From positions 248,001-312,000 of the forward strand of contig NZ_JOHR01000001.1 of NCBI RefSeq assembly GCF_000719775.1: 64,000 nt of DNA, given 5' to 3'. Below, piece after piece: positions 18,958 to 59,431 of this stretch (the first letter of the stretch is position 1; each line of letters opens with the position of its first letter). The notes below the pieces were generated by a model. That model ran no database searches and was not told the origin of the DNA. It saw nothing but the letters and a program-made list of their open reading frames with translations. The DNA comes from Streptomyces sp. NRRL F-5135. Lineage in GTDB: Bacteria > Actinomycetota > Actinomycetes > Streptomycetales > Streptomycetaceae. The position numbers were made by a program, and so were the translations under genes.

Positions 18958-18973
18958 TCTACAGTGCTGTAGA
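18958..18973. promoter_or_regulatory. BlaI-type operator, perfect dyad, upstream of broken terD
   Basis: TCTACA-GTGC-TGTAGA, perfect 6-bp arms with a 4-nt spacer, centred 53 nt before the terD start and followed by an AT-rich TTTTAAT. The same dyad recurs at 45124, 45143, 59357 and 59416. Confidence 0.75.
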
Positions 18974-19018
18974 TTTTAATCCCGATCACCGGCACGACTC
19001 GGCTCAGGAGGAGCAATC

Positions 19019-19409
19019 GTGGGAGTTTCCCTGTCCAAAGGCGGCAATGTCTCGCTCACCAAGGAGGCACCGGGCCTGACGGCGGTCGTCGTGGGCCTCG
19101 GCTGGGACGTCCGGACGACGACCGGCACCGACTACGACCTGGACGCCAGCGCCCTGCTGTGCGACGAGAACGGCAAAGTCGGCTCCAACGAGCACTTCGT
19201 CTTCTACAACAACCTGACCAGCCCGGACGGTTCGGTGCAGCACACCGGCGACAACCTGACCGGTGAGGGCGAGGGCGACGACGAGACCATCAAGGTCGAC
19301 CTGGCGACCGTCCCGGCCCAGGTGTCGAAGATCGTCTTCCCGGTCTCCGGGCCAGGGTTACGCCTCGGGGCTCTCCGGGATCGCCGCGGACTTCGGCGTC
19401 AGCGTCTGA
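19019..19409 (+). pseudogene. terD: terD, frameshifted by an internal deletion
   Basis: GTG start with a strong AGGAGGAG site. The first 110 residues are normal Ter[40 protein letters not shown], then the [20 protein letters not shown] strand. After Ser110 about 185 nt are missing compared with the copy at 58879, and the frame shifts. The true C-terminus, [19 protein letters not shown] and stop, is still readable in another frame up to 19409. The missing segment covers the second half of the fold (DAESR through WKFRAI). TerD proteins are calcium-binding stress proteins of about 191 residues. The deletion may be real or an assembly fault. Confidence 0.85.
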
Positions 19410-19448
19410 CGCGTCCGGCGGCGCCGGCGCGTCAGGGATCGTACGACT

Positions 19449-19479
19449 GTGGGGCACAGGGCCGGACCCTGTGCCCCAC
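19449..19479. terminator. Terminator hairpin, 13-bp perfect stem
   Basis: GTGGGGCACAGGG (19449-19461), loop CCGGA, CCCTGTGCCCCAC (19467-19479), between the broken terD and the convergent antiporter gene. Confidence 0.8.
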
Positions 19480-19523
19480 GGTCATGCGCGAGGGAGTCGT
19501 GCGCGAGGGTGCGCCCCGTTCGC

Positions 19524-20888
19524 TCAGCCCTGGCGGCGCGTGGCGCCGTCCGGTTCCTTGGCCTCCCGAGCGGCCGGCGCGTCGGAGGCGTCCCGCACGC
19601 CCTCCGGGTCCACGACGGCGTGCGCCTCCGGCTCCGTCCGTTCCCGCGCCCCGGGCCCGGAGACCTCGGGGGCGCCGACCGCGGCGGCGGCCGCGCCGGC
19701 GCCCGCCGGGCCACCGGCCACCGCGGCGGCGGGCGCCGACCGGCCGAACAGCCGCCTGCCCAGGGGCTCGGTCCAGCGCGCCGCCAGCGGGCCGAGGATC
19801 ACGAGTATCAGGACGTACGCCGTGGCGAGCGGACCGATCCGCGGCTCCACCCCCACCGCGAGCCCGGCGATGACGATGGAGAACTCGCCACGCGCCACCA
19901 GGGTCCCGCCCGTACGCCACCGGCCCGCCGTCCGCACCCCGGCCCGCTTGGCCGCGTACCAGCCGGTGCCGATCTTCGTCACGGTCGTGACCGCGGCCAG
20001 GAGGAGGGCGGGCAGCAGCACCGGCGGAATGGCGGCCGGATCGGTGTTCAGCCCGAAGAAGACGAAGAAGACGGCCGCGAAGAGGTCCCGCAGCGGGGCC
20101 AGCAGGTTGTGCGCGCCCTCGGCGACCTCGCCGGAGAGCGCGATACCGACGAGGAAGGCGCCGACGGCCGCGGAGACCTGGAGTTCCTGGGCGACTCCGG
20201 CGACCAGGACGGTCAGCCCGAGGACCACCAGGAGCAGCATCTCCGGGTTGTCGGAGGAGACCGCGCGGCTGATGAGGCGGCCGTGCCGCAGCGCGAGGTA
20301 GAGGACGGCGCCGACCGTGCCGAGCGAGATCAGCAGCGTGAGGCTGCCGCCGGCGAGGCTGAGCCCGGCGAGCAGGGCCGTGAGCAGCGGCAGGTAGACG
20401 GCCATCGCCAGGTCCTCGATGACCAGGACGCCGAGGATGACGGGCGTCTCGCGGTTGCCGAGCCGGCCGAGGTCGCCGAGGACCTTGGCGATCACGCCGG
20501 AGGAGGAGATCCAGGTGACGCCCGCCAGGGCCACCGCGGCGACCGGGCCCCAGCCCAGGATCAGCGCGGCGGCGGCGCCGGGCACCGCGTTCAGGACGAA
20601 GTCGACGATGCCGGAGGGGTACTGGGTCTTGAGGTTCGTGACCAGTTCCGAAGCGCTGTACTCCAGGCCCAGCAGGAGCAGCAGCAGGATGACGCCGATC
20701 TCCGCGCCGGTGGCGATGAACTCCTCACTGGCGTTGAGGGGGATCAGCCCGCCATGGCCGAAGGCGAGTCCGGCGAGCAGGTAGAGCGGGATGGCGGAGA
20801 AGCCCACTCGACCGGCGAGCCGGCCGAGTATCCCGAGACCCAGGATGATGGCCCCGAGTTCGATGAGCAGAGCGGTGGTGTCGTGCAC
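19524..20888 (-). CDS. CPA2-family cation:proton antiporter
   Basis: 454 residues with about 12 hydrophobic helices from [19 protein letters not shown] onwards. [20 protein letters not shown] is the helix carrying the conserved acidic residue of K+/Na+:H+ exchangers, and [13 protein letters not shown] is typical of the KefB/KhtU group. A 70-residue Ala/Gly/Glu-rich cytosolic tail ends the protein. It lies 7 nt after the RCK_C gene, matching KhtTU-type pairs in which the small subunit gates the exchanger. Confidence 0.88.
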
Positions 20889-20895
20889 GGGACCG

Positions 20896-21381
20896 TTATC
20901 CTCCGGTGATCAGTTCGGCGACGGCGTCCACGCCTTCCCGGGTGCCGACGACGACGAGGGTGTCGCCCAGCGCGAAGCGGAAGTCCGGAGTGGGCGAGGG
21001 GAAGGCGTCGGTACGGCGCAGGACGGCGACGATGGAGGCGCCGGTACGGCTGCGGACCTGGGTGTCGCCCAGCGTGCGGCCGACGTACGGGGACCGCTTC
21101 GTGACCGGGATGTGCTCGGTGAGCAGGTCGATCTCCAGGTGCTGGTGCAGATGCGCAACGGGGTCGGGCACCAGGAGTTTGGAGAGCGCGGTGGCCTCGT
21201 GCGGGGCGAGGGCCGCGGCGTCCCGGCAGTCGTCGTCGTCCTCGGGATCGTGGAACGCGAGGATGCGCCGTCCGTCCTGGTGCACGACGACCGACAGGTG
21301 CTTGCCTGTTTCCGTGTTCAGGTCGTAGCGGGTACCGACCCCGGGCAGGGTGGTCTTGCTGACGTGAGCGGGGTGCTCCAT
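20896..21381 (-). CDS. RCK_C (TrkA-C) regulatory subunit of the antiporter, KhtT-like
   Basis: 161 residues: an N-terminal KhtT-like part (KTTLPGVGTRYDLNTETGKH, then AFHDPEDDDD) and a C-terminal RCK_C domain (HLEIDLLTEHIPV, GRTLGDTQVRSRTGASIVAV, GDTLVVVGTREGVDAVAELI). The ATG at 21381 has GGAG 9 nt upstream; another ATG lies five codons earlier. RCK_C domains of this type bind c-di-AMP in several Gram-positive bacteria, which would tie K+/H+ exchange to that messenger; this is inference here. Confidence 0.88.
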   Translation of the reverse strand: MEHPAHVSKTTLPGVGTRYDLNTETGKHLSVVVHQDGRRILAFHDPEDDDDCRDAAALAPHEATALSKLLVPDPVAHLHQHLEIDLLTEHIPVTKRSPYVGRTLGDTQVRSRTGASIVAVLRRTDAFPSPTPDFRFALGDTLVVVGTREGVDAVAELITGG

Positions 21382-21751
21382 AGGAAAACGCTCCATGCGG
21401 GCGAACGTGAGGGTGTGAGGGCCGGGCGGCCGGGGGCAGGGCCCGAAGGCCATGAGCGGGCGGGGTCCGGACAGCGCTGTGCCACCGTCCGCCGGGGGAC
21501 GGTGTGCCACCGTCTGATACGGCGCGTCCGCGTCATGCGCCGCGGGAGAGCACGGTTAAGGGCACCCGCGACGGGGCCGACTCCGTGTCAGCGGCGCGGC
21601 CGTGGACGGACGGCGAGGGTGTGCGCGTAGGAACCGCCCCCTCAGAACCGCGTTTCGACCGACCGCCCGTATGAGTAATGGGCGCGCCAAACGCAAGGAC
21701 TCCTTGGGCACCCTAACGTCATCTTAACGCAAAATAAAATATGCCGATCAT

Positions 21752-21780
21752 ACCTTATGGGGCTGTTCACCCCGTAAGGT
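21752..21780. promoter_or_regulatory. Inverted repeat beside an AT-rich block upstream of the antiporter operon
   Basis: ACCTTATGGGG (21752-21762), loop CTGTTCA, CCCCGTAAGGT (21770-21780): 10 of 11 positions pair. The neighbouring 21715-21755 is very AT-rich for this genome (CATCTTAACGCAAAATAAAA). It lies between the end of the DUF3040 gene and the leftward antiporter operon, so it could be a terminator, an operator or a leader element. The gap 21382-21807 otherwise shows no gene. Confidence 0.5.
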
Positions 21781-21807
21781 CCCCGCTCGTTCGGCCTCGT
21801 CAGCCGC

Positions 21808-22311
21808 TCAGAAGCGCGGCGGAGCGCCCCGCCCGTACTGGCCTCGGTCCGGGTCGAAGAGATGGGCCGCCAGCCCGGCCAGCACCAGCCCGGCCGCGAT
21901 GAGCAGGCCGTGGCTCACGGCGACGCCCAGGGCGAACCCGCCGAGCGCGACGGCCAGCAGCAGCCAGGCCCACCCGTGGCGGTACTCACGCGGGCGGCAG
22001 GGCACGCCGGCCTGAAAGGCCTCGGCGAAGCGGGGGTCGTCCCGGCGCAGTCGCTCGGCCACCTCGGCGAGCCGCCGGTCTTCCGGCGAACACCGGTCCT
22101 CGGGAGAGTGCCCGTCCCGGGCGTAGTGCCCTCCTTGGGCAGGGCGCGGGCCCTGTGCACGGTGCCGGTCCTGGGCACGGTGGCCGTCCTGGGCACGGTG
22201 GCCGTCCTGGGCACGGTGGCCGTCCTGGGCACGGTGGCCGTCCCGCGGGGGCCGACCGCTCCCCTGGGGCACCTGGTCCTCGTGGGGCCCTCGCTCGTCC
22301 TGGGCAGCCAT
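21808..22311 (-). CDS. DUF3040 membrane protein with HRAQDG repeats
   Basis: 167 residues. The ATG at 22311 has GGAGGT 7 nt upstream. The N-terminal third is hydrophilic with tandem HRAQDG hexapeptides from an 18-bp DNA repeat. The C-terminal part has the DUF3040 pattern LAEVAERLRRDDPRFAEAFQ and one or two membrane helices (WLLLAVALGGFALGVAV, LLIAAGLVLAGLAAHLF). The function of DUF3040 is unknown. It is divergent from the sensor kinase. Confidence 0.82.
   Translation of the reverse strand: MAAQDERGPHEDQVPQGSGRPPRDGHRAQDGHRAQDGHRAQDGHRAQDRHRAQGPRPAQGGHYARDGHSPEDRCSPEDRRLAEVAERLRRDDPRFAEAFQAGVPCRPREYRHGWAWLLLAVALGGFALGVAVSHGLLIAAGLVLAGLAAHLFDPDRGQYGRGAPPRF
22153..22242. repeat. 18-bp tandem repeat in the DUF3040 gene
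   Basis: CTGGGCACGGTGGCCGTC occurs four times without a mismatch (22171-22242), preceded by one diverged copy (22153-22170). On the minus strand it encodes HRAQDG. The perfect identity suggests recent expansion. Confidence 0.9.
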
Positions 22312-22529
22312 GGGACACCTCCCTCTCGGTCCGGTCACCGGCACGGTCCGCCGTACCACCACGGTCCTGTGTGCACCGGGCCGACCGCCATAGGTGGGAA
22401 CACCCAAATCCGGGTGCGGACGACACGCATTCACCGACCGTGCCGCGCTCCGACCGGGGGCGGCTGTCGGGCCGGGCCCGGCCGCCGGGCGATAGTGGAG
22501 GGCGCGTCAACCTGGAGGAGGCCCACTCC

Positions 22530-23642
22530 GTGTCCCTGTTCTGGCGGATCTTTCTGCTCAACGCCGCCGTGCTGTTCGCGGCGACCGCCCTGCTGCTGCT
22601 CGGCCCCGTCACCGTCTCGGCTCCCGTCCTGCTCACCGAGGCCCTCATCATGGCCCTCGGCCTGGTGGCCATGCTCGTCGCCAACGCCGCGCTGCTCCGG
22701 GTCGGACTCGCTCCGCTGCAACGGCTCACGCGTGCCATGACGACGACGGACCTGTTGCGCCCCGGCCGCCGGCCCGCGGTCTCGGGGCATGCCGAGATCG
22801 CCGGGCTGATCAGGACGTTCAACACGATGCTCGACCGGCTGGAGGCCGAACGCGCGGCCAGCAGCGGGCTGGCCCTCTCGGCCCAGGAGGCCGAACGCCG
22901 CAGGATCGCCCAGGAGTTGCACGACGAGATCGGCCAGACCCTGACGGCGGTGCTGCTCGAGCTGAAACGGGTCGCCGACCGGGCGCCCGCGCCGCTGCGG
23001 GACGAGCTGCGCCAAGTGCAGGAGACGACCCGCGGCAGCCTGGACGAGATCCGCCGTATCGCCCGCCGCCTCCGCCCCGGGGTACTGGAGGAACTGGGCC
23101 TGATCAGCGCGCTCAGGGCGCTGACGCCCGAACTCACCGAACACTCCGGGCTCACGGTCCGGCACGCGTTCGACAGCGGCCTGCCGGCCCTCGGCCCGGA
23201 CGTGGAACTCGTGCTCTACCGCGTCGCCCAGGAAGGTCTCACCAACATCGTCCGGCACGCGGACGCGCGCCACGCGGACCTCGCGCTGCGGCGCACGCCC
23301 GGCGGGGTGGAGCTGTCCCTGGCCGACGACGGCCGCGGTATCGGCACGGCCGTGGAGGGCGCGGGGATCCGCGGCATGCGGGAGCGGGCCCTGCTCATCG
23401 GGGCCGATGTCTTCGTGGGCGGGAGGCCGGGGGGAGCCGCCGGAACCGAGGTGCGGCTACGGGTTCCCGTCGGGAGCGGGCCCGGGGCCGCGGACGGAGC
23501 CGGCGGCCGGAGCCCGGACGGGACCAACGGGCCCCCGGGCGGGGCCGGGTACGGGATCCCGGGCGGGAACAGGACCGGGCAGGAGATCCCGGGCGGGGAC
23601 GCGACCGCGGGCGGCGGCGGGAAAGGGAGCGAGAGCGGATGA
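22530..23642 (+). CDS. NarL-type sensor histidine kinase
   Basis: 370 residues: two N-terminal membrane helices (8-27 and 31-55) with almost no extracellular loop, a HAMP-like linker, HisKA_3 with His131 in AQELHDEIGQTLTAVLLEL, and a HATPase domain (EGLTNIVRHADA, LADDGRGIG). The lack of an outer domain suggests sensing in the membrane. GTG start after GGAGGAG. The C-terminus ends in a Gly/Pro-rich tail of about 60 residues. It is coupled to the response regulator by ATGA. Confidence 0.9.
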   Translation: MSLFWRIFLLNAAVLFAATALLLLGPVTVSAPVLLTEALIMALGLVAMLVANAALLRVGLAPLQRLTRAMTTTDLLRPGRRPAVSGHAEIAGLIRTFNTMLDRLEAERAASSGLALSAQEAERRRIAQELHDEIGQTLTAVLLELKRVADRAPAPLRDELRQVQETTRGSLDEIRRIARRLRPGVLEELGLISALRALTPELTEHSGLTVRHAFDSGLPALGPDVELVLYRVAQEGLTNIVRHADARHADLALRRTPGGVELSLADDGRGIGTAVEGAGIRGMRERALLIGADVFVGGRPGGAAGTEVRLRVPVGSGPGAADGAGGRSPDGTNGPPGGAGYGIPGGNRTGQEIPGGDATAGGGGKGSESG

Positions 23643-24298
23643 CCGGGACGGCACAGACCCGCATCCTGCTGGCGGACGACCACGCCCTGGTGCGCCGTGG
23701 CGTGCGCCTCATCCTCGACAACGAACCTGACCTGACGGTCGTCGCCGAGGCGGGCGACGGCGCCGAGGCCCTCGAACTGGCCCGCGCCCACCGCCCCGAC
23801 CTGGCGATCCTGGACATCGCGATGCCCCGGCTGACCGGGCTCCAGGCGGCGCGCGAACTGTCGCGGCTCCAGCCCGGCGTACGCATCCTGATGCTGACGA
23901 TGTACGACAACGAGCAGTATTTCTTCGAGGCGTTGAAGGCGGGCGCGAGCGGGTACGTCCTGAAGTCGGTCGCCGACCGGGACCTGTTGGAGGCGTGCCG
24001 GGCCGCGATGCGCGACGAGCCGTTCCTCTACCCCGGGGCGGTCACGGCCCTCATCCGGAACTACCTCGACCGGGTACGGCGCGGCGAAGGCGTCCCGGAC
24101 AACGCGCTCACCCCGCGCGAGGAGGAGATCCTCAAGCTCGTCGCCGAGGGCCACACCTCCAAGGAGATCGCGGGCATCCTGCACATCAGCGACCGGACCG
24201 TGGAGCGGCACCGCGCCAATCTCCTCCAGAAGCTGGGCCTGCGGGACCGGCTGGAGCTCACGCGGTACGCGATCCGGGCCGGCCTGATCGAGCCCTGA
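23639..24298 (+). CDS. LuxR/NarL-family response regulator
   Basis: 219 residues. The receiver domain has acidic residues at 13-14 (LADDHALVRRG), phospho-accepting Asp59 (LAILDIAMP), a Thr in MLTMYDN and Lys in YVLKSV. The C-terminal LuxR helix-turn-helix (about 155-211) reads LTPREEEILKLVAEG then SDRTVERHRANLLQKLGL. It is the partner of the overlapping kinase. Targets are unknown; the nearest rightward gene is the binding-protein-like CDS 246 nt downstream. Confidence 0.92.
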   Translation: MTGTAQTRILLADDHALVRRGVRLILDNEPDLTVVAEAGDGAEALELARAHRPDLAILDIAMPRLTGLQAARELSRLQPGVRILMLTMYDNEQYFFEALKAGASGYVLKSVADRDLLEACRAAMRDEPFLYPGAVTALIRNYLDRVRRGEGVPDNALTPREEEILKLVAEGHTSKEIAGILHISDRTVERHRANLLQKLGLRDRLELTRYAIRAGLIEP

Positions 24299-24544
24299 CG
24301 CCCGCCTGACGGCCGCTCCGGCAGCACACCCGGCACACCGCTTCGACGGCTCTCCGGCAGCCCGTCCGCACGCCGGCCCGGTGGCCCGTCCCACGCGCCG
24401 CCGACGGCCGGTCCGATGAGATCCGGGCCACGGTACGCGTCCGGGCCGTCCGAGCTGGGCAGACAGTGGGTGGCGCCGGTACGGGTACCGCGTACGGGCG
24501 CCGCGCACGGACATCGCACCGACCGAAGCGGAACGAGGCGAGGC

Positions 24545-25417: not shown

Positions 25418-25428
25418 CGCGTCCGCGC
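25404..25428. terminator. Hairpin whose loop is the stop codon
   Basis: GCGCGGACGCG (25404-25414), loop TAG (25415-25417, the stop codon of the binding-protein-like gene), CGCGTCCGCGC (25418-25428): 11-bp perfect stem. It lies between convergent genes. Confidence 0.6.
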
Positions 25429-25561
25429 GGAATCGGCGACAGTCGCGACAAACCTGACACGGCGAACAAGACGGGGAGGCGCCGGGACCGGGACGGTGCC
25501 GCGCCACGGGGCGGGGCTCCGGCCGACGGCTCCCGCGCGGCCCGGATCACGCCGCGGCCGC

Positions 25562-25975: not shown

Positions 25976-26250
25976 ACGGAATCACTCCTTCCATCAGGAA
26001 CCGGCGTTCTCGCCCCCGAGCAGGACGACCGCCGGGGCACTCCCCACGGCACCGGTCCGTCCACTCCATGCACTGCAACCACTCTTCTTGTCCTGATGCC
26101 CAGGTCTCCCGGCGCCCAATCGTGGGCGGGGCCCACGGGCCGCCGAGCGCGAAGAGCCTCGCGTACCGTCTTCCCCCGTTCCGCCCCTGATAGCGCACTG
26201 TCCCGCTGCCCGGATGGCGAGGCGGCGCTCCGGCGCACAGACTTGACCGC

Positions 26251-26745: not shown

Positions 26746-26921
26746 CCGGCGTTCGCGGTGTCCGCCCGGTCGGCACCGGCGTCCGGGCGTCCCGGCATCC
26801 GGCGCACTCCCGCGACCCGCACGGCGCCCCTGCCCGGGCCATGCCCACGCCCGGTGCTCCGCGCCCCCGTCGTTCCCGTTCCCGCTCCCGTTCGCATCGC
26901 CACCAGGAAGGGTCCCGTTCC

Positions 26922-27929: not shown

Positions 27930-27939
27930 GGCCGGCTTC

Positions 27940-43749: not shown

Positions 43750-44700
43750 TCAGCGAGTGAGGTTCTGCCCCTGGGCCATCTCGACATGTCCGTGCAGATC
43801 CTCCACCGCGTCCACGGCGGTGGCGCCGGAAACCGTCAGACAGATCACCAGCGCGGCCACGACCAGCCGACCCGCGGGACGGCTGGTCGTGGAAGGGACA
43901 GCCAGGGGCGTATCGAGCAGCGCGGCGACACGCCGGGGCACCGGCCCGGCGTTCATCCCCAGGGCGGCGCGCGGGCGGTCCGGCGCCGACGCGCTCGCGG
44001 CACGCGCGGCGAGGGCGGCCCTGGCTATCGCGCGCGCCACGAGCCGCCGGTCACCGACGGCGGCGGCCGCGGCCTCGTCCGCCGCGCGCTCCAGCGCGTA
44101 CCCGACGGGCTCGCACAACGTGCGCAGGGCGGGGTGGCAGAGCGCGGCCAGTTCCACGGCCACGAGCACCCGGTGATGACGGCCGCGCAGGTGGGCGCGT
44201 TCGTGGGCGAAGAGCGCCGCGCGCTCGTCCGGCTCCAGGGCGCGCAGCATTCCGGTCGTCACCACGATCCTGCCGGGCCTCCCCGGCAGCGCGTACGCGT
44301 CCGGCCGGGCCTGGCGCAGGACCGCCAGTTCACCCGCGGTGCCGCCGGCGGCGGCCCGGGCCCGGCGCAGGTCCGCCCGGTCGCGGCGGACGGCGACGGC
44401 GACCAGGCCCGCGCGCCAGGCCAGCACTCCCCCGGCGGCGAGCGCGAGTGCGACGGTCACCGGGGGCGGCCCCAGGGACAGCGGCCTGGCCAGCTCGCCG
44501 AGCGCGGCGACCGCGGGGAGGTAGGAGGCCCCGGGCACGGCCAGCAGGGCGAGTGCGGCCGAGCTGGTGGCGGCCGGCAGGAGCGCGGCGGTGGTGAGCA
44601 GCACCACGGCGTGTCGCGGTGACAGGTACGCCGCGGCCCGGCGCGCCGTGGGCGCCGCGAGGAAGGGCACCAGCAGGGGAACCCAGACGGCATAGCTCAT
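43750..44700 (-). CDS. M56-family membrane metallopeptidase, second copy
   Basis: 316 residues with N-terminal membrane helices, a cytosolic zinc site HERAH in FAHERAHLRGRHH, a downstream YALERAADEAAAAAVG segment with the third ligand, and a C-terminal helix followed by a short outer tail. No beta-lactam sensor domain. The start overlaps the BlaI stop (ATGA). It should act on the BlaI next to it. Confidence 0.85.
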   Translation of the reverse strand: MSYAVWVPLLVPFLAAPTARRAAAYLSPRHAVVLLTTAALLPAATSSAALALLAVPGASYLPAVAALGELARPLSLGPPPVTVALALAAGGVLAWRAGLVAVAVRRDRADLRRARAAAGGTAGELAVLRQARPDAYALPGRPGRIVVTTGMLRALEPDERAALFAHERAHLRGRHHRVLVAVELAALCHPALRTLCEPVGYALERAADEAAAAAVGDRRLVARAIARAALAARAASASAPDRPRAALGMNAGPVPRRVAALLDTPLAVPSTTSRPAGRLVVAALVICLTVSGATAVDAVEDLHGHVEMAQGQNLTR

Positions 44701-45098
44701 CCGGCCGCGCCCCCGGCCGGCCGGTCCGGGCCGTCCTCCGCGTCCAGCAGGGAGCGCAATATGCGCTCGTCCTCGTCGTCGAGCTGGGAGACGAAGCGGG
44801 CGAGCACCGCGCGCCGGTCCTCGTCCTTGGCCAGTTCGGAATGCATCCGCCGAGCGGTGAGACCCGGGGCGTCCTCGGTCGGCGTATACGCGTATCCGCG
44901 TCCCGCCCTGACCCGGGTGACGGTGCCCTTCCCGTACAGCCGGCCGAGGATCGTGGTGACGGTGGTCCGGGCGAGCGAGCCGCCCAGCGACTCCTGCACC
45001 CGGCCCGGGGTGAGCGGCCCCTCGGCGGCCCACAGGGCGGCGAGCACGTCGGCTTCCAGTTCCCCCGCCGACCGCCGGTCCGCACTCCCGTGGCCCAT
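44697..45098 (-). CDS. BlaI/MecI-family repressor, second copy
   Basis: 133 residues, the usual family length. ADVLAALWAAEGPLTPGRVQ and TTVTTILGRLYGKGTV form the winged helix; ARFVSQLDDEDERILRSLLD is the dimer and protease-recognition part. GGGAGGGG precedes the ATG. Two BlaI-type dyads 26 to 60 nt upstream make autoregulation and control of the divergent dedA-PAP2 genes likely. Confidence 0.9.
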   Translation of the reverse strand: MGHGSADRRSAGELEADVLAALWAAEGPLTPGRVQESLGGSLARTTVTTILGRLYGKGTVTRVRAGRGYAYTPTEDAPGLTARRMHSELAKDEDRRAVLARFVSQLDDEDERILRSLLDAEDGPDRPAGGAAG

Positions 45099-45123
45099 GG
45101 GAACGTCCCCTCCCTTTTGTTCG

Positions 45124-45139
45124 TCTACAGTGTCGTAGA
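45124..45139. promoter_or_regulatory. BlaI-type operator 1 at blaI/dedA
   Basis: TCTACA-GTGT-CGTAGA, one mismatch from the perfect dyad. It lies in the 110-nt divergent gap between blaI and dedA. Confidence 0.7.
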
Positions 45140-45142
45140 CCG

Positions 45143-45158
45143 ACTACACCCCTGTAGA
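45143..45158. promoter_or_regulatory. BlaI-type operator 2 at blaI/dedA
   Basis: ACTACA-CCCC-TGTAGA, one mismatch. Its centre is 19 bp from the first site, almost two helical turns, suitable for two dimers on one DNA face. Confidence 0.7.
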
Positions 45159-45208
45159 CAGTCTGACTGTCGTACTGACCCTGTCCACCATTATGGGAGC
45201 AGCACTCC

Positions 45209-45874
45209 ATGGCCGAATCCGTGCTCGCGGCGCTTCCGATGGCCGTGAATCTCCTCGACGCGGGATCCCTGCTCTCCGCGTCCGGTGCCCTGGGCATCGC
45301 CGTCGTCCTCTTCGCCGAGACGGGCCTGCTGGTCGGGTTCTTCCTGCCCGGCGACTCCCTGCTCTTCACCGCCGGACTGCTGTGCGCTCCCGGCAGGGAC
45401 GGCCCCGTCCACCTCGCCCTGCCCCAGGTGCTCCTCGCGTCGGCCGCCGGCGCCCTGCTGGGCGCGCAGACCGGCTACTGGATCGGGCGGCGCGGTGGCC
45501 GGGCACTGCTGGCGCACGGCCGGAGCCGCCGGATCCACGAGGGCGCGGCCCGCGCGCGGGAACTGTTCGAACGGTACGGCCACGCCAAGGCGATCGTGCT
45601 GGCCCGCTTCGTGCCCGTGGTGCGTACGGTGCTCAATCCGCTGGCCGGCGCCCTGGACGTGCCCGCACGCGCCTTCGCCTGCTGGCAGATCGCCGGCGGC
45701 CTGTTCTGGACGGTCGGACTCGTGCTCGCCGGATACGCGCTGGGAGCGTCCGTCCCGCACGTCGACCGCTATCTGCTGCCGATCGTGGCGCTCGTGGTCG
45801 TGGTCTCGCTCGTTCCCCCGCTCCTGGAAGTGCTCCGCGCACGCCGGACCTCCGTGGAGGGGACGCGCTCATGA
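45209..45874 (+). CDS. DedA-family membrane protein
   Basis: 221 residues. LFAETGLLVGFFLPGDSLLF is the first re-entrant motif and ARFVPVVRTVLNPLAGALDVP the second, both diagnostic of DedA. DedA proteins are undecaprenyl-phosphate or phospholipid flippases. The stop overlaps the start of the PAP2 gene. Both are divergent from blaI across two operators. Confidence 0.9.
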   Translation: MAESVLAALPMAVNLLDAGSLLSASGALGIAVVLFAETGLLVGFFLPGDSLLFTAGLLCAPGRDGPVHLALPQVLLASAAGALLGAQTGYWIGRRGGRALLAHGRSRRIHEGAARARELFERYGHAKAIVLARFVPVVRTVLNPLAGALDVPARAFACWQIAGGLFWTVGLVLAGYALGASVPHVDRYLLPIVALVVVVSLVPPLLEVLRARRTSVEGTRS

Positions 45875-46524
45875 CCGGCCGCTGGTTCGACGACGGCGTC
45901 TACACCTACGTCACCGATCTGGCCCACCACTCCCCCGGCTGGCTGGACAGCGCCGTCTCCGCCTGGTCGACGTACGGTCCGGGGCTGTTCGCGGTCCTGC
46001 TCCTGGTCGCGTGGTGGCGCGCCCGGCCGACGGACTCCGCCCTGTCGGCGCTCGCCCTGACCGCCCCTCTCGTCGTGGGCACGGCCTACCTCGTCAGCAG
46101 CGCCCTCAAGTCGGTGCTGCGTGAGCAGCGACCCTGCCAGGCGCTGCACGCGATCTCCCTCGAGTCGTGTCCCCCGCCGGGCGACTGGTCGCTGCCCAGC
46201 AACCACGCCGTCATCGCCGCCGCCGCGGCCGTCACCCTGCTGTTCACCGACCGCGCCCTCGCGGCCCTCGCCGTACCGGCGGCGCTCCTGATGGCCGGAT
46301 CGCGCGTCTGGGTCGGGGCGCACTACCCCCACGACGTGGTGCTCGGGCTGATCGTGGGGGCGCTGGTGGCCTGGGTCCTGATGTCCGTCACCCGGCGCGC
46401 CGCGCCCCTGGCCGAGCGGCTGCACGGCACGCGGCTGCGCCCGCTGGTGGCCCGCGGGGAACCGCTGCGGACGGAGCCGGTACGGGGCGACCACGTCGGC
46501 GGGGAGCCCCTGGGCGGCAGGTGA
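45871..46524 (+). CDS. PAP2-family lipid phosphatase
   Basis: 217 residues with about five membrane helices. The three active-site motifs are KSVLREQRP, PSNH and SRVWVGAHYPHDV. Family members dephosphorylate undecaprenyl diphosphate or phosphatidyl-type lipids on the outer membrane face. Coupled to DedA (ATGA), which fits joint recycling of the C55 lipid carrier. Confidence 0.9.
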   Translation: MTGRWFDDGVYTYVTDLAHHSPGWLDSAVSAWSTYGPGLFAVLLLVAWWRARPTDSALSALALTAPLVVGTAYLVSSALKSVLREQRPCQALHAISLESCPPPGDWSLPSNHAVIAAAAAVTLLFTDRALAALAVPAALLMAGSRVWVGAHYPHDVVLGLIVGALVAWVLMSVTRRAAPLAERLHGTRLRPLVARGEPLRTEPVRGDHVGGEPLGGR

Positions 46525-50429: not shown

Positions 50430-50574
50430 CCGAGCGCCGCCCCGCGTACTCCGTCGTCTCCCGCGTCGCCGTCCCGCGCGTGCCGCGTCCCGCTGTCCGC
50501 CGTGACCGCGCCCGCGTCCCCTCCCCCGTCGCCGTCCCCGTCCCCGTCCCCGACTCCAAGGAGCGTTCCTCCGC

Positions 50575-53014: not shown

Positions 53015-53204
53015 CCCCCGAACCGGTACCCCTGGCCTCGGGCCCGGTGCTCGCCCGCCCCGGCCGGGTACTCCGCTGCTCCCGGCCCCGGCCTCGGGCC
53101 GCTCCGCGTCCGGGACGGGGCCGAGTGGCGCGGTGTTCACCGGTGTCGTTTCCTGGCCGGAGGGAGTGGTGCGTCGGCGCGGCGAGGACGGTCAGGGAGA
53201 GAGC

Positions 53205-54233
53205 ATGCGGATCGGAGTTCTGACCGGCGGGGGCGACTGCCCCGGTCTCAACGCGGTGATCCGCGGTGTCGTCCGCAAGGGGGTCCAGGAGTACGCCTGG
53301 AAGTTCACCGGTTTCGTCGACGGGTGGAGCGGGGTCGTCAACGACGTGACCATGCCGCTGGACATCGCCACCGTCCGGGGCATCCTGCCGCTCGGCGGCA
53401 CGATCCTGGGGTCCTCGCGCACCAATCCCCTGCGGGCCGAGGACGGCGTCGCACGGGTGCGGAACACCCTGGGCGCGCACGAGATCGACGCTCTGATCGT
53501 GATCGGTGGTGAGGACACGCTCGGCGTGGCGAGCGCGCTGGCGAACGAGGGGGTCCGGCTGGTCGGGGTGCCCAAGACCATCGACAACGACGTCGGCGGC
53601 ACCGACTACACCTTCGGTTTCGACACGGCGGTCAACATCGCGACCGAGGCGATCGACCGTCTGCACACGACCGCGGAGTCGCACCGGCGGACGCTCGTGG
53701 TGGAGCTGATGGGACGCCATTCCGGGTGGATCGCGCTGCACGCGGGCGTCGCGGGAGGCGCGAACGCGATCCTCATTCCCGAGCGGGAGTTCGACATCGA
53801 CCAGGTGTGCGTCTGGGTGGAGAGCCGTTTCCGGATCAGCTCCGCGCCGATCGTCGTGGTCGCCGAGGGCGCGGTCCCGAAGGCCGGACAGATGGTGGTC
53901 AGGGACGCGTCGCGGGACGAGTTCGGGCATGTCCGCCTGTCCGGCATCGGCGACTGGCTCACCCAGGAGATCGCGAGCCGTACGGAGAAGGACGCACGGA
54001 CGACGGTACTCGGCCACATCCAGCGCGGCGGCACCCCGAGCGCGTACGACCGGTGGCTCGCGACCCGTTTCGGGCTGCACGCCGTGGCCGCCGTCAAGGA
54101 CGGGGACTTCGGGACGATGGTGGCCTTGCGGGGCACGGACATCGTGCGGGTGCCGCTCGCGGAAGCGGTGGCGGCGACCAAGCGCGTCTCCCCGGAGCTG
54201 TACGCGGAATTCGGTCTCTTCTTCGGCAGCTGA
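53205..54233 (+). CDS. pfkA: 6-phosphofructokinase with PPi-type active-site residues
   Basis: 342 residues. Family motifs GVLTGGGDCPGLNAVIRG, GGTILGSSRTNP, and catalytic TIDNDVGGTDYTFGFDTA. At the position that separates ATP from PPi users this protein has GGED (101-104, Asp104) instead of GGDG or GGEG, and the following PKTIDND has Lys124. That combination is the one found in PPi-dependent enzymes. It converts fructose-6-phosphate to the 1,6-bisphosphate. The ATG follows a GGGAGAGAG site. Donor specificity is predicted, not shown. Confidence 0.85.
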   Translation: MRIGVLTGGGDCPGLNAVIRGVVRKGVQEYAWKFTGFVDGWSGVVNDVTMPLDIATVRGILPLGGTILGSSRTNPLRAEDGVARVRNTLGAHEIDALIVIGGEDTLGVASALANEGVRLVGVPKTIDNDVGGTDYTFGFDTAVNIATEAIDRLHTTAESHRRTLVVELMGRHSGWIALHAGVAGGANAILIPEREFDIDQVCVWVESRFRISSAPIVVVAEGAVPKAGQMVVRDASRDEFGHVRLSGIGDWLTQEIASRTEKDARTTVLGHIQRGGTPSAYDRWLATRFGLHAVAAVKDGDFGTMVALRGTDIVRVPLAEAVAATKRVSPELYAEFGLFFGS

Positions 54234-54367
54234 GCGGCTGAGGAGCGGCGTCGGCGGGCGGCGACGCGGCCCGCGCGCGGCGTGGCCCGGCCCGCGTACG
54301 GCGTGCGTCCGCCGCCGGTCCCCTTCCCGGGCCGCGCACTCCGGCGGTCCGCACCGGCCGGTAACGG

Positions 54368-55243
54368 TCACTCGTGGGGCACGACGACGACCGGGCAGCA
54401 CGCGTGGTGCAGGACGGCGTGGGCCACCGGGCCGAGGCGCCGTTCCGCCACCCGGCGTCCGTCGGTCGCCCGGCGTCCGTCGGTGCGGCCGAGGACGAGC
54501 AGGCCGGCCCGGTGGGAGAGGTTCACCAGCGCCCGCGCCGGGTGGAGGAGCACGACATCGTGCCGGACCGCGACGTCCGGATACTCCCGCCGCCACCGTC
54601 GGAGCACATCGGACAGGCGTTGTTCCTCCTCGTCCTCCCAGGTCGCCCGGTCCTCTTCGAGCACACCCGGGGCCGTCCGCGGCGAACCGTCGGGAAGGGC
54701 CCACGCGTGCGCCGCCACCAGCGCCGTGCCGTGCAGGCGAGCGGCCTGGAAGGCGAAGGCCAGGACCGGCCGGGCGGCCTCGCGCGACCTCACCCCCACG
54801 GCGACGTCGCGCCGCAGGGCCGGCGCGGCCGTTCCCGCGCGGCCGTCCGGACCGGCCACCGGCCGGGGGACCACCGCGACGGGGCAGGGCGCCGCACCCG
54901 CCACCGCCAGCGCCGTCGATCCCATCGCCAGGCCGGCGAATCCGCCCTCCCCGCGCGCTCCGACCACCAGCAGTCCGGCGCTCCCGGCCGCGTCGAGCAG
55001 CGCCGCCGAGGGCGTGCCGGCCACGGCGCGGACGGCGCTCACCTCCGTACCGGGACGCCCTTCGGTGAACCGCCCCCGGGCCCGCTCCAGCACGTCGTCC
55101 TCCTCCGGCGGGGACACCGCGGCGGACACGGCGCGCACCAGACGCAGCGGGAGTTCCCGGAGTTCCGCCTGGCGCGCCGCCCAGGCGCCCGCGACCAGGC
55201 TTTCCCCGGAGCCGTCGATTCCCACCACCACAGAGCCAGTCAT
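54368..55243 (-). CDS. Universal stress protein, two USP domains
   Basis: 291 residues. Domain 1 opens SVVVGIDGSGESLVAGAWAA and closes with the ATP motif GARGEGGFAGLAMGSTALAV then CPVAVVPRP. Domain 2 opens DVAVGVRSREAARPVLAFAF and ends GLLVLGRTDGRR, LGPVAHAVLHHACCPVVVVP. GAGGAGCGGGG precedes the ATG. Tandem USPs are common in actinomycetes under hypoxia or nutrient stress. Confidence 0.88.
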   Translation of the reverse strand: MTGSVVVGIDGSGESLVAGAWAARQAELRELPLRLVRAVSAAVSPPEEDDVLERARGRFTEGRPGTEVSAVRAVAGTPSAALLDAAGSAGLLVVGARGEGGFAGLAMGSTALAVAGAAPCPVAVVPRPVAGPDGRAGTAAPALRRDVAVGVRSREAARPVLAFAFQAARLHGTALVAAHAWALPDGSPRTAPGVLEEDRATWEDEEEQRLSDVLRRWRREYPDVAVRHDVVLLHPARALVNLSHRAGLLVLGRTDGRRATDGRRVAERRLGPVAHAVLHHACCPVVVVPHE

Positions 55244-55459
55244 CCCCGCTCCTCGCGGCACCGTCGCGTACGGCGGTGCCGGTCCGCTTCGTACGTACCG
55301 GACCGCGCGACCCGTCGTCCCCGGGCCCCGGTCCGCGGTCCCCGGCCCCCGGTGGACGGGGACATCCATTCTCCGCCCGGGCGGCCGACTCCACGACTCC
55401 GGCGGCCGCGGCGGGCGGACCCCGGCGCGGGCCGGGCGCCAACGCGTAACCTGGGGCTC

Positions 55460-56569
55460 GTGGACGCGGGTCCGATCACCCTGTTCCTCTGCGGTGACGT
55501 GATGCTCGGCCGGGGCGTCGACCAGATCCTTCCGCACCCCGGTGACCCCGCGCTGCGGGAGAGATACGTGACGGACGCCCGGACGTACGTCGAGCTCGCG
55601 GAGGCCGCGAACGGACCGATCCCGTGGCCGGTCGGGTTCGGCTGGCCGTGGGGCGACGCGCTGGAGGTTCTGGGCGCGGCGGCCCCCGACGCCGCCGTGA
55701 TCAACCTGGAGACCGGTGTCACGCGTGGCGGGGAGTTCGCGCCCGGCAAGGGCGTCCACTACCGGATGACCCCCGACAATCTGCCCGCGCTGGCCGCCGC
55801 CCGCCCGGACGTCTGCGCCCTGGCCAACAACCACGTACTGGACTTCGGCCGCCGAGGGCTCGTCGAGACGCTCGACGCCCTGGCGGAGGCCGGGCTGCGT
55901 ACGGCGGGGGCCGGGCGGGACGCGGCGGAGGCGGAGCGGCCCGCGATCGTCCCCACCGGCCCCGGCCGGGTGCTGGTCCTCTCCTTCGCCATGCCGACCA
56001 GCGGTGTCCCGCCCGGGTGGGCCGCGGCACGGCGGCGGAGCGGTGTCGCGGTGGTCGCCGAGCCCTCGGCCGCCGCGGCCGCCCGGCTCACCGACCGGGT
56101 GCGCGGGCTGAAGCGGCCGGGGGACATCGTGGTGGCGTCGGTCCACTGGGGCCCCAACTGGGGCTACCGCGTCTCCCGCGACGAGGCCCGCTTCGCGCAC
56201 GCGCTGATCGACGGCGGCGTGGACGTCGTGCACGGTCATTCCTCGCACCATCCGCGCCCCGCCGAGCTGTACCGGGGAAAGCTCGTCCTGTACGGCTGCG
56301 GCGACGCCGTCAACGACTACGAGGGGATCAGCGGCTACGAACCGTACCGCGACGACCTGCGCCTGCTGTACTTGGTGTCGGTGGAGCCGGCCACGGGCCT
56401 GGCCGCCGAGGTGCGGATGGTGCCCTTCCAGGCGCGGCGCATGCGGCTGCGGTACGCCGCGTACGAGGCCGTCGAGTGGCTGGCGGACGTGCTGAGCGAT
56501 GTCGGCCGGGAAGTCGGATCACGTGTCGACCGCGCACCGGACGGCGCGCTCCTCCTCCGGCCGCGGTGA
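55460..56569 (+). CDS. CapA-family protein (poly-gamma-glutamate/capsule type)
   Basis: 369 residues. Metallophosphoesterase-like motifs FLCGDVMLGRG, INLETGVTRG, ALANNHVLDFG, VHWGPNW and VHGHSSHHP define CapA/PGA_cap proteins. No signal peptide is visible, so it may be cytosolic, unlike capsule-linked CapA. The GTG at 55460 is the most sensible start though its ribosome site is weak. It is divergent from the USP gene. Confidence 0.82.
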   Translation: MDAGPITLFLCGDVMLGRGVDQILPHPGDPALRERYVTDARTYVELAEAANGPIPWPVGFGWPWGDALEVLGAAAPDAAVINLETGVTRGGEFAPGKGVHYRMTPDNLPALAAARPDVCALANNHVLDFGRRGLVETLDALAEAGLRTAGAGRDAAEAERPAIVPTGPGRVLVLSFAMPTSGVPPGWAAARRRSGVAVVAEPSAAAAARLTDRVRGLKRPGDIVVASVHWGPNWGYRVSRDEARFAHALIDGGVDVVHGHSSHHPRPAELYRGKLVLYGCGDAVNDYEGISGYEPYRDDLRLLYLVSVEPATGLAAEVRMVPFQARRMRLRYAAYEAVEWLADVLSDVGREVGSRVDRAPDGALLLRPR

Positions 56570-56636
56570 GAACGCCCGACGTCACGGGCGGCGTTCCAGG
56601 TCGCGATCAGGGACGCCGGCGTGCTCGGATACACCC

Positions 56637-57491
56637 ATGGGCATGAGGCGCGCGCTCATCGTGGACAGACACCGGTTCCTGCGGCTGTACCGCGGGGTCG
56701 CCGACTCCGTCGTGCTGCTCGCGTGGAACCGGGGCCGGGAGATGGAGCTGATGCACCGGGCCATGAGCTTCGCGGCGCTCGGATTCCTGACCCTGGTGCC
56801 CCTGCTGATCCTGGTCGCGGCGGCCGACCCCGCGAGTGGTCAGGGGTTCGCGCGGTGGCTGGGGCAGGGGCTGGGCGTCTCGTCGGCGTCACAGGACGAG
56901 CTCCAGCAGCTGTTCGGCCGGCCGGGGCAGGCGCTCCAGCGGACGACCGCGTTCGGGCTGGCCGCGCTCGCCGCGTTCGGGCTGACCTTCGGGGGCGCCG
57001 TGCAGACGGGTTACGAGCGGGTCTGGGAGCTGCCGACGGCCCGCTGGCACACGATGTGGCGGCACGTCGTGTGGCTGGCGGTCCTCGTCGGTTTCCTCGT
57101 CGGCTTCGTCAACACCCCCGTCACCTCCGCGTCCACTACGGAGGGGATCCTGATCACGGTGGGCGACGTCGTGGGGACCTTCCTGTTCTTCTGGTGGTCC
57201 CAGCGGCTGCTGCTCGCCGGCCGGGTACGGTGGCGTGCGCTGGCGCCGGGCGCCGCCGCGACCGCGCTGGGGCTGCTCGGGCTGCGCGTGTTCTCCCGGC
57301 TGGTGTTCTCGCCGCTGATCGCCTCGAACGCGGTGACCTACGGGCCCTTCGGGACGGTCCTCGTCCTTCAGTCGTGGCTGGTCGGCGTGGGTTTCGTGGT
57401 CTACGGCGGGGCGCTGGTGGGCCGCCTCTACCACGAACACCGTACGCACCGGCGTCTGGCACGGGAACTCGCGCGGCCGGACCGGTGGTGA
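56637..57491 (+). CDS. YihY/BrkB-family membrane protein
   Basis: 284 residues with about six membrane helices; MHRAMSFAALGFLTLVPLLI is the typical first helix and LIASNAVTYGPFGTVLVLQS the last conserved segment. The family's role is not established. The ATG at 56637 or the one two codons later may be used; no strong ribosome site is present. Confidence 0.8.
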   Translation: MGMRRALIVDRHRFLRLYRGVADSVVLLAWNRGREMELMHRAMSFAALGFLTLVPLLILVAAADPASGQGFARWLGQGLGVSSASQDELQQLFGRPGQALQRTTAFGLAALAAFGLTFGGAVQTGYERVWELPTARWHTMWRHVVWLAVLVGFLVGFVNTPVTSASTTEGILITVGDVVGTFLFFWWSQRLLLAGRVRWRALAPGAAATALGLLGLRVFSRLVFSPLIASNAVTYGPFGTVLVLQSWLVGVGFVVYGGALVGRLYHEHRTHRRLARELARPDRW

Positions 57492-57505
57492 ACGCGCGGG
57501 TGCGT

Positions 57506-57572
57506 CGGGCCCGGTGCCGGCCGGGCCCGCGCGGTGCCGCTGCGGTGCTCGTCAGACCCCGGTGGGGGTCTG
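57506..57572. terminator. Double hairpin between convergent genes
   Basis: First stem CGGGCCCGG/CCGGGCCCG (57506-57514, 57521-57529), second stem CAGACCCC/GGGGTCTG (57553-57560, 57565-57572). They separate the convergent BrkB and TerB genes. Confidence 0.65.
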
Positions 57573-57585
57573 TCCAGAGGTGGGA

Positions 57586-58041
57586 TCAGAGGTCGAACTC
57601 GCTCGGGGAGATGCCGACGGCGAAGCACGCCTCCCGGACGACCGCGCGCTCCTGCTCGTCGAAGTCGCCGTCGGCGCCGCCGATGACGATGCCGATCTGG
57701 ATGACCGCGCGGGCCTCGGTCGGCTTCTTGGCGACCTTTCCGATGGTCTGCAGGACACCGACCTTGCCGAAGTCGAAGTCGGCCGTCAGCTTCTGGCAGT
57801 AGTCGTTGAACCGTGCCTGGAGGTCTTCCGCGGGGAAGTTCTGCAGGACGTCGTTGCTCATGATGAGCCCGGCGACGCGCTGGCGCTCGGAGGCGTCGAT
57901 GGAGCCGTCGGCGGCGGCGACCAGCGCGCACATGGCCATGCTGGCGTCCCGGAAGGCACCGCTCTTGAGGTCGTTCTTCTTGGCGTTGAGCTGCGTCTGC
58001 ATCGACGCGGCGGAATCCTTGATGCGGTCCCACAGGGCCAC
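57586..58041 (-). CDS. TerB-family tellurite-resistance protein
   Basis: 151 residues. ALVAAADGSIDASERQRVAG and IGGADGDFDEQERAVVREAC are the two acidic metal-binding repeats of TerB. GTG start with AGGAG before it. TerB works with TerC/TerD-type proteins at the membrane in stress response. It is the third gene of the leftward terD-terZ-terB series. Confidence 0.85.
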   Translation of the reverse strand: MALWDRIKDSAASMQTQLNAKKNDLKSGAFRDASMAMCALVAAADGSIDASERQRVAGLIMSNDVLQNFPAEDLQARFNDYCQKLTADFDFGKVGVLQTIGKVAKKPTEARAVIQIGIVIGGADGDFDEQERAVVREACFAVGISPSEFDL

Positions 58042-58150
58042 GGGTATCTCCTGTTTCAGGGTCTGGTTCGGTTCTGGTTCGGCGGGAGGGCTCCGGCCGG
58101 ACGGTCCGCCCGTACCGCGGCCCGACGGCCGTGGGGAGGGGCCCCGGGTC

Positions 58151-58732
58151 TCACAGGTGCGGCGCGACGGCCGGCATGAGGTCCTGGAACGTACGGCCCT
58201 CGGCCGGGGAGCCGATGGCGCCCATCTGCCAGCCGTCGCCGGAGCGGAACACCTTGGCCATGATCTGCGCGGTGTGCGCGCCACCACCGGTGAGGGTGTA
58301 CCGGGCCAGTTCCTGGCCGGTGGTCTCGTCCACGAGGCGGCAGAAGGCGTTCTCGACCTCCTCGAAGGTCTGACCGGTGAAGGAGTTCACGGTGAACACG
58401 ATCTGGTCGACGTGGACGGGCACCCGCTTCAGGTCCACGAGGATCGACTCGTCATCACCGCCCTGCCCGGCTCCCCCGACGCGGTTGTCGCCGGTGTGCC
58501 GCACGGAGCCGTCGTCGCTCGTCAGGTGCTGGAAGAAGACGACGTCCACGGCCTGCTTGTCGGCGAAGAGCAGCGCCGACGCGTCCAGGTCGATCTCCTT
58601 CGCGGTCATCCGCGCGAAGAAGCCCTTCTTCTGCGCTGCCTGCCAGCCGAGCCCCATGCGGACGAGGGTGAGTTCGCCCCCGCCCGATTTGGTCAGGCTG
58701 ATCTGCTGGCCCTTGGAGAGGTTGATGCTCAA
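58151..58732 (-). CDS. TerD-family stress protein, TerZ-like
   Basis: 193 residues, full length. SINLSKGQQISLTKSGGG, the Ca2+-site segment [26 protein letters not shown] and GGDDESILVDLKRVP are conserved in the family, and the C-terminal strand is intact. The TTG start is fixed by AGGAG 8 nt upstream and the conserved start sequence SINLSKG. It lies 146 nt after terD and 109 nt before terB. Confidence 0.88.
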   Translation of the reverse strand: MSINLSKGQQISLTKSGGGELTLVRMGLGWQAAQKKGFFARMTAKEIDLDASALLFADKQAVDVVFFQHLTSDDGSVRHTGDNRVGGAGQGGDDESILVDLKRVPVHVDQIVFTVNSFTGQTFEEVENAFCRLVDETTGQELARYTLTGGGAHTAQIMAKVFRSGDGWQMGAIGSPAEGRTFQDLMPAVAPHL

Positions 58733-58878
58733 CGGTGACTCCTGGAACGGTCTCGGAGGCGAGTACGGGTGGGGGAGGAGCTGTCGCGGGTGCGGACCGC
58801 CGCGCGCGGCGTACCGGAACGTGCCCGGCGCGCACGCGCCGACGGCCGGCGCCGCCGCGCGGCGGTGACGCGGGACGG

Positions 58879-59274
58879 TCAGATGTTGACACCGTAGTCG
58901 GAGGCGATCCCGGCGAGCCCGGAGGCGTACCCCTGGCCGATGGCGCGGAACTTCCACTCCGCGCCGTGCCGGTACAGCTCGCCGAAGACCATCGCGGTCT
59001 CGGTCGAGGCGTCCTCGCTCAGGTCGTAGCGCGCCAGTTCGGCGCCGCCCGCCTGGTTGACCACGCGGATGAAGGCGTTGCGGACCTGGCCGAAGCTCTG
59101 GCCCCGGGACTCGGCGTCATGGATGGAGACCGGGAAGACGATCTTCGACACCTGGGCCGGGACGGTCGCCAGGTCGACCTTGATGGTCTCGTCGTCGCCC
59201 TCGAGCACGGCGGTCAGACCGGGAGCCTCCTTGCTCAGCGAGACGTTTCCGCCCTTGGCGAGGCTCACACCCAT
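58879..59274 (-). CDS. terD: TerD with a 60-residue in-frame internal deletion
   Basis: 131 residues instead of about 191. The start [19 protein letters not shown] joins at Val23-Leu24 directly to [15 protein letters not shown], so residues equivalent to 25-84 of the copy at 19019, including GLGWDVRT and the DYDLDASA calcium-binding region, are missing. The junction reads CTCGAG (59200-59205). The C-terminus is complete to [10 protein letters not shown]. Without the first half the fold is unlikely to be stable. The other terD has lost the part this one keeps. Confidence 0.85.
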
Positions 59275-59356
59275 GTCGTTTCCCTTCGTCCGTCCTTCGA
59301 TCCGGGCGCGCCGGACTGCCCGGCGCGGCGTGGTGCCGGTGAGGCACTTCCGTAAA

Positions 59357-59372
59357 TCTACAACACTGTAGA
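59357..59372. promoter_or_regulatory. BlaI-type operator 1 between terD and LCP gene
   Basis: TCTACA-ACAC-TGTAGA, a perfect dyad, centred 90 nt before the terD start. Confidence 0.75.
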
Positions 59373-59415
59373 AATTGTCCGCGCCACCGTGCGGGGAACC
59401 GGGAAGGGGGCTGCT

Positions 59416-59431
59416 TCTACACACCTGTAGA
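59416..59431. promoter_or_regulatory. BlaI-type operator 2 between terD and LCP gene
   Basis: TCTACA-CACC-TGTAGA, a perfect dyad, centred 60 nt before the LCP start and 59 bp from the first site. Confidence 0.75.

Follow-up and report, generated by a model that had tools for sequence, protein, structure and literature searches.

A conserved TCTACA-N4-TGTAGA dyad as a candidate operator of BlaI-type repressors at Ter and envelope genes of Streptomycetaceae

Dyads and genes in the window

The stretch of DNA analysed here, 64,000 nt of contig NZ_JOHR01000001.1 from Streptomyces sp. NRRL F-5135 (the window), carries five copies of the inverted repeat TCTACA-N4-TGTAGA among genes for BlaI/MecI-family repressors, M56-type metalloproteases, Ter proteins and envelope functions (Table 1). 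A scan allowing up to two mismatches returned these five matches against 0.17 expected, a number that none of 100 shuffles reached, and no sixth copy. The original prediction had placed three perfect and two one-mismatch dyads at these very positions, all intergenic and with no further copy in the window, and the scan reproduced each of these points. It had also put them 53 to 90 nt before a start codon; the dyads do precede starts, but the distances measured from the dyad edge are 25, 45, 50, 52 and 82 nt.

The pair of dyads at 45124 and 45143 separates blaI-1, followed by M56-1, from dedA, followed by the PAP2 gene, and the pair at 59357 and 59416 separates the ter cluster from the LCP gene. 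The neighbours had thus been named correctly (a broken terD, blaI with M56, dedA-PAP2, the Ter cluster and LCP), with the addition that the terD copy beside 59357 is damaged as well. Window genes carry the marks of a BlaI/MecI repressor system, namely the Penicillinase_R (PF03965) winged-helix domain and a linked M56/BlaR1 metalloprotease. Pfam searches of the scanned neighbours revealed no beta-lactamase or penicillin-binding protein (PBP) at the five dyads. The two terD copies adjoining perfect dyads carry different losses, C-terminal in one and internal in the other, which may reflect genuine decay or a misassembly of near-identical copies in this draft.

Table 1. Dyads and neighbouring genes in the window (ORF, open reading frame; TM, transmembrane)
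Feature	Coordinates	Strand	Remarks
Perfect dyad, proposed terD-A operator	18958..18973	.	45 nt before terD-A start; 419 nt from blaI-2
One-mismatch dyad, proposed blaI-1 operator	45124..45139	.	25 nt from blaI-1 start; relatives show tandem layout
One-mismatch dyad, proposed dedA-PAP2 operator	45143..45158	.	19 bp from 45124 dyad; 50 nt from dedA
Perfect dyad, proposed ter cluster operator	59357..59372	.	82 nt from terD-B
Perfect dyad, proposed LCP gene operator	59416..59431	.	52 nt from start; LCP genes of relatives also have 5' dyads
M56-2, 343 aa	16810..17841	-	TM and metalloprotease (HERAH), no sensor domain found; downstream of blaI-2
blaI-2, BlaI/MecI-family repressor	17846..18538	-	Long low-complexity tail; Pfam Penicillinase_R 8.4e-21 (scan on longer ORF 17846-18925)
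terD-A remnant	19019..19348	+	TerD profile 1-110 of 187; C-terminal part lost
M56-1, BlaR1-like membrane metalloprotease, 316 aa	43750..44700	-	HERAH; overlaps blaI-1 stop; Pfam M48 3.2e-12, M56 8.5e-5 (below cut-off; scan on longer ORF 43750-45369)
blaI-1, BlaI/MecI-family repressor	44697..45098	-	Pfam Penicillinase_R 1.7e-21
dedA (VTT domain)	45209..45874	+	Pfam VTT_dom 4.2e-20
PAP2-family phosphatase	45871..46524	+	Pfam PAP2 9.3e-23; overlaps dedA stop
ORF holding terB	57586..58287	-	Pfam TerB 3e-27, residues 114-232; real start probably inside ORF
ORF holding terD-C	58151..58957	-	TerD profile 2-178 over residues 77-254; real start probably inside ORF
terD-B, in-frame internal deletion	58879..59274	-	TerD profile 85-187 kept
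LCP (LytR-CpsA-Psr) wall-polymer ligase gene	59484..61025	+	Pfam LytR_cpsA_psr 1.8e-45

The dyad is rare in the source genome. With the reversed motif as the control here and throughout, the 8.02 Mb in 116 contigs hold four exact and four one-mismatch dyads against a single control match, which bears out the expected rarity. Six of these eight fall within 65 kb and five inside the window; the binomial chance of five out of eight in a given 64 kb is about 2e-9, a figure that gives scale only, the window not being a random choice. At two mismatches the count (40 dyads) equals that of the control (42), so only matches with no or one mismatch are informative. Two of the eight (C1:242592 and C13:129335) lie inside called genes and are probably due to chance, and the fourth exact dyad (C13:120584) stands where the 5' end of a TatA-like gene was called.

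Recurrence of the dyad and its linkage to BlaI genes

A total of 202 exact dyads (control, 3) was recovered from 121 genomes of the same genus, the source included, with copies in 75 of them. Taking a close BlaI to be a match at E <=1e-16 with either window protein, a limit of our own choosing, and counting genomes regardless of kinship, exact dyads were present in 75 of the 96 genomes that have such a BlaI, against 0 of the 25 with none or a weak one (Fisher 1.3e-13).

We examined the neighbours of the dyads in two sets of sites. Set 1, drawn from the dyads listed, comprises 49 regions of 26 other genomes together with the source genome (75 exact sites, 27 genomes). Set 2 comprises 80 named loci with Streptomyces or Kitasatospora in the title that were picked solely by similarity to BlaI-2; these may overlap with the 121 genomes, and two of them (L199 and L088) appear to be one contig. 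Set 2 held 110 exact dyads in 65 of the 80 loci and no control match, and the control remained at zero even with one mismatch allowed in the 82 loci scanned (the 80 plus two plasmid loci). Genes were called with a simple GC-frame caller that overlooked the damaged terD-A and sets starts too far upstream, and the tallies of neighbours are therefore approximate. Only 5/75 and 8/110 exact sites lay deep in a called gene, so the dyad does not behave as a motif frequent inside coding regions. A further 9/75 (none called within 250 nt) and 8/110 were without a 5' neighbour, the 18958 dyad counting among the former because terD-A was missed.

The genes that follow the dyads belong to a recurrent group of families. 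With each family identified from one or a few representatives, and with one site able to count on both sides, the 5' genes of set 1 were TerD (21), BlaI (20), TerB (15), LCP (4), acyltransferase-3 (4), TatA (3), Spo0M (3), PAP2 (3), DedA (2), transglycosylase-associated (2) and CNNM/CorC (2) genes, single genes for UppP, an ion channel and a fatty-acid desaturase, one class A PBP (part of the neighbours having been scanned), and further genes without a family. In set 2 they were BlaI (38), TerB (30), TerD (29), Spo0M (7), TatA (4), LCP (4), CNNM (3) and unnamed genes (32). Conservation upstream of orthologues, which the original prediction had made a test of its regulon, was found in many species for terD, blaI, dedA, LCP and other genes. 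BlaI was the only recurrent DNA-binding family among family-assigned 5' neighbours (20/75 sites, with one MarR), some clusters being unnamed.

The window paralogues represent two clades that differ in helix motif and operator layout. Exact dyads go with the BlaI-2 type, occurring in 66/78 genomes that have it and 9/43 that do not, and the BlaI-1 type by itself showed no association with them among the 121 genomes. In the BlaI-1 type the dyads are often arranged in tandem with a 19-bp pitch. After identical BlaI domains were dropped, and with part of the loci having been picked by dyad, 16 of 32 distinct BlaI-1-type genes had a pair at exactly this pitch, 12 had other dyads and 4 had none; the corresponding numbers for 49 distinct BlaI-2-type genes were 1, 38 and 10. 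A dyad with up to two mismatches lay within 500 nt upstream of 67 of these 81 genes, and 27 of the 30 loci of best BlaI-1 matches (window included) held one at that stringency. The helix with the TTV motif, putatively the recognition helix by analogy with MecI/BlaI structures, reads R-TTV-T/A in 29/32 genes of the BlaI-1 type, the other 3 being unmatched, and Y/H-TTV-I/M/V in 48/49 of the BlaI-2 type, with 1 unmatched.

The extended consensus is weak, about AACTTCTACA-GTAC-TGTAGAAGTT, with flanks that extend the dyad to about AACTTCTACAGTACTGTAGAAGTT. A -10-like TANNNT element stood in register with the dyad on 105/120 sides of five target families versus 24/91 control sides, identical or end-truncated promoter segments having been dropped and the offsets picked after viewing the data.

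Dyads also occur on plasmids. A 639-kb Streptomyces plasmid carries two TerD genes, two BlaI genes, M56, USP, two hemolysin-family (CNNM-like) genes and TerB, together with a sporulation-protein (Spo0M-like) gene, TatA, GlsB and dyads, and this gene set adjoins integrase and IS110 genes. A 927-kb S. fungicidicus plasmid has a smaller gene set with dyads. Locus L174 (NZ_CP109461, 5339-17758) is a plasmid island of Ter, BlaI and M56 genes beside integrase/IS110, with five dyads at <=1 mismatch.

The operator reading and its alternatives

Rarity, conservation and position of the dyad, its linkage to BlaI and the -10 register at five target families were all computed here. Taken together, these patterns make it very probable that the dyad is an operator of BlaI/MecI-type repressors in Streptomycetaceae, with a 4-nt spacer, through which these proteins would control themselves and a regulon of envelope and Ter genes. 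This agrees with the joint regulon originally proposed, since the dyad is rare, conserved 5' of its putative targets and tracks BlaI.

We infer BlaI binding, repression, protease action and an envelope signal in the following manner. In unstressed cells a BlaI dimer on the dyad would cover the overlapping or abutting -10-like element, keeping blaI-M56, ter genes, LCP, dedA-PAP2, tatA, spo0M and others low. An envelope signal would then lead the M56 protease, which resembles BlaR1 in its membrane and protease portion and in which no beta-lactam-binding domain was seen, to inactivate BlaI and turn the regulon on. The two clades would have the half-site in common, the blaI-2 type acting with widespread single perfect boxes and the blaI-1 type often on tandem, slightly degenerate boxes before itself and, in the window, dedA. 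It is likely, with somewhat less assurance than the operator itself, that the whole constitutes a family-wide, partly plasmid-borne envelope-stress regulon of Streptomycetaceae. In such a regulon BlaI and sensor-less BlaR1-like proteases would use a 16-24-bp box to co-switch Ter proteins, C55-lipid recycling enzymes (DedA, PAP2, UppP), wall-polymer ligases and Tat/Spo0M-type proteins, with the two BlaI paralogue clades forming its tandem-box and single-box branches.

A number of observations weigh against the operator reading. No dyad lies nearer than 419 nt to blaI-2 within the window, 12/78 genomes with the BlaI-2 type are without an exact dyad, and so are 15 of the 80 set 2 loci. The co-occurrence of BlaI and dyad ignores descent and depends on E-value limits set by us. 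The TANNNT offsets are post hoc, sites of orthologues do not count as independent, and the register did not exceed the control level on BlaI sides (19/57), at unnamed genes (20/66) or at CNNM genes (0/4). Matches to TerD number 5-16 per genome in 31 genomes, and in the source genome, with 15 such matches, no more than two ter loci have exact dyads; some genomes with TerD also give no BlaI match (e.g., G008). Most TerD genes therefore lie outside the regulon. Beyond the genus, 12 exact sites were found in 11/181 genomes (control, 3) and only two of the 12 adjoin a BlaI gene; of the others, one has TerD at about 0.75 kb, two lie 5' of a glycosyltransferase gene and one is beside a LacI-like gene. 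This sparsity indicates that the box belongs mainly to the family from which the window comes.

The 15 dyad-less loci of set 2 were followed further. By eye, eight of them contain a BlaI-M56 pair that is Kitasatospora-like and stands apart from ter genes. Thirteen are without even a one-mismatch dyad, and no other inverted repeat upstream of BlaI was common to more than three of these; 12 of their 13 genomes carry exact dyads elsewhere (control, 0). In 20 regions of seven such genomes, 8 of 21 dyads precede TerD (3), LCP (2), BlaI/DedA (1), TatA (1) or Spo0M (1) genes, the BlaI/DedA case repeating the divergent layout of the window, and the remaining 13 are without a named 5' gene, which again counts against the reading. 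Because these dyads are dispersed over the genomes, linkage within a single island cannot explain them.

Could the dyad instead be the site of another transcription factor, with blaI merely one of its targets? Co-occurrence and adjacency alone cannot name the binder, and these bacteria have similar-looking dyads beside LacI- and TetR-type genes. This explanation is nevertheless improbable, given that BlaI is the sole recurrent DNA-binding family among the family-assigned neighbours, that none of the 25 genomes with an absent or weak BlaI has an exact dyad, and that TACA/TGTA is the BlaI/MecI/CopY half-site (PMC7253601). Transcribed into RNA, inverted repeats of 6 bp around a 4-nt loop could also fold as hairpins, which would make the dyads terminators or attenuators. 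Their place 5' of genes, often between divergent starts, the -10-like element in register on target sides and the dependence of dyad presence on BlaI make this very unlikely indeed.

A closer competitor accepts BlaI as the binder and divides the sites into two insulated regulons, BlaI-1 acting on itself and dedA-PAP2 through tandem boxes and BlaI-2 on all single perfect boxes, with no cross-talk. That exact dyads follow the BlaI-2 type rather than the BlaI-1 type speaks for such a division, as do the clade differences in helix residues and in the 19-bp tandem layout (16/32 vs 1/49). However, the half-sites are nearly identical, an exact dyad lies upstream of several BlaI-1-type genes (L048, L049, L059, L061, L065), and exact dyads occur in 6 of 11 genomes that have the BlaI-1 type and lack the BlaI-2 type. 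Insulation is a serious possibility, somewhat less likely than not.

Known systems and related motifs

BlaI/MecI repressors and their TACA/TGTA half-sites are already known. What appears to be new is a BlaI/M56 system with a different spacer and a new set of targets, in which no beta-lactam sensor was found; we found no description of this box or of a BlaI-Ter regulon in the open-licence literature. If the operator reading is true, BlaI/M56 would serve a purpose other than beta-lactam resistance. A box tying some TerD proteins to a repressor, a protease and envelope genes would provide a direct handle on the role of Ter, and would make members of the regulon predictable from sequence in many actinomycete genomes.

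Pfam assigned only M48/M56 domains to M56-1 and M56-2, with no penicillin-binding domain; a sensor may reside on a separate protein. The M56 model resembles BlaR1 without its sensor, the alignment stopping near BlaR1 residue 289, and a Foldseek search by itself returned no M56 match below E 0.5. Among solved structures the only sequence relative found was PDB 2g9w, which we take to be the mycobacterial BlaI Rv1846c. For mycobacterial BlaI, Sala in 2009 reportedly described a genome-wide regulon, to judge by the title.

The BlaI/MecI-BlaR1/MecR1 systems of Staphylococcus and Bacillus share with the window the PF03965 repressor, the TACA/TGTA half-sites and a blaI gene beside an M56 protease gene. 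They also have a divergent, self-regulated layout (PMC3305447), which the window genes would share. In contrast, classical bla/mec operators have a 2-nt spacer (TACA-N2-TGTA), their sensor binds penicillin, and their targets are beta-lactamase or PBP2a, whereas the spacer here is 4 nt, no such sensor domain was found in the M56 proteins, and the boxes adjoin ter, LCP, dedA, PAP2, tatA and spo0M. The earlier remark that the usual BlaI/MecI spacer differs is borne out by CopY/MecI/BlaI sites given as TACANNTGTA or TACA/TGTA in PMC7253601. The CopY/CopR copper repressors are related and have the half-site TACANNTGTA (same paper). CopY, however, carries a C-terminal CXC metal motif, which BlaI-1 and BlaI-2, being without any cysteine, do not have, and again the spacer here is 4. 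PMC8457756 describes BlaI_0696 and BlaI_1845 of Clostridium thermocellum as self-regulated, with paired sites able to hold four protomers. These sites resemble the 19-bp tandem boxes; their half-sites (GTCTAT/GACTAT) and very small regulons differ.

The Streptomyces sigma-E regulon offers a tie between a TerD gene and envelope stress. It differs in its positive control, in its use of a sigma factor and in its promoter motif. The gene concerned, SCO2368, presumably encodes a TerD domain, as the title of a cited paper has it. According to PMC6767563, SCO2368 belongs to the targets of sigma-E, and vancomycin raises the level of the encoded protein.

Several further dyads deserve mention. Locus L168 (4555-7391), from another family, has a perfect dyad 5' of a BlaI gene with M56, near uppP/bacA; its BlaI is 74% identical to one BlaI of the fetched set. 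In L279, L283 and L288 dyads lie about 160 nt upstream of the gene for a conserved 68-aa protein (MFESLKNLADKATDLAREH...), and in L276 one precedes a TetR-like gene (by eye).

Other spacings of TCTACA-N0..12-TGTAGA were considered as the same system and set aside. Among 75 forward matches listed from 51 genomes, the spacer was N4 in 42, N10-11 in 17, N2 in 15 and N1 in 1. The N2 dyads in the five loci read adjoin a TetR-type gene, called by Pfam for L156 and by eye for the others. These loci (L156-L160) have paired TCTACA-N2-TGTAGA about 29-44 bp apart, and most of them, judged by eye, also carry a gene resembling FAD monooxygenases. The N10-11 dyads, viewed in one locus, form a separate motif, a 22-23-bp palindrome like TCTACACCACTCAGTGGTGTAGA (e.g., L173 5764), of which 17 genomes have one copy each among the matches listed. 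The TACA-N4-TGTA cluster on contig C14 of the source genome was likewise rejected, as it adjoins a LacI-like gene (by eye) and, despite its resemblance to the BlaI box, probably belongs to a separate system. There (G000:C14:126739-134352, L294), four TTTACATCGTTGTACA / TGTACATCGATGTACA dyads surround the LacI-like regulator gene.

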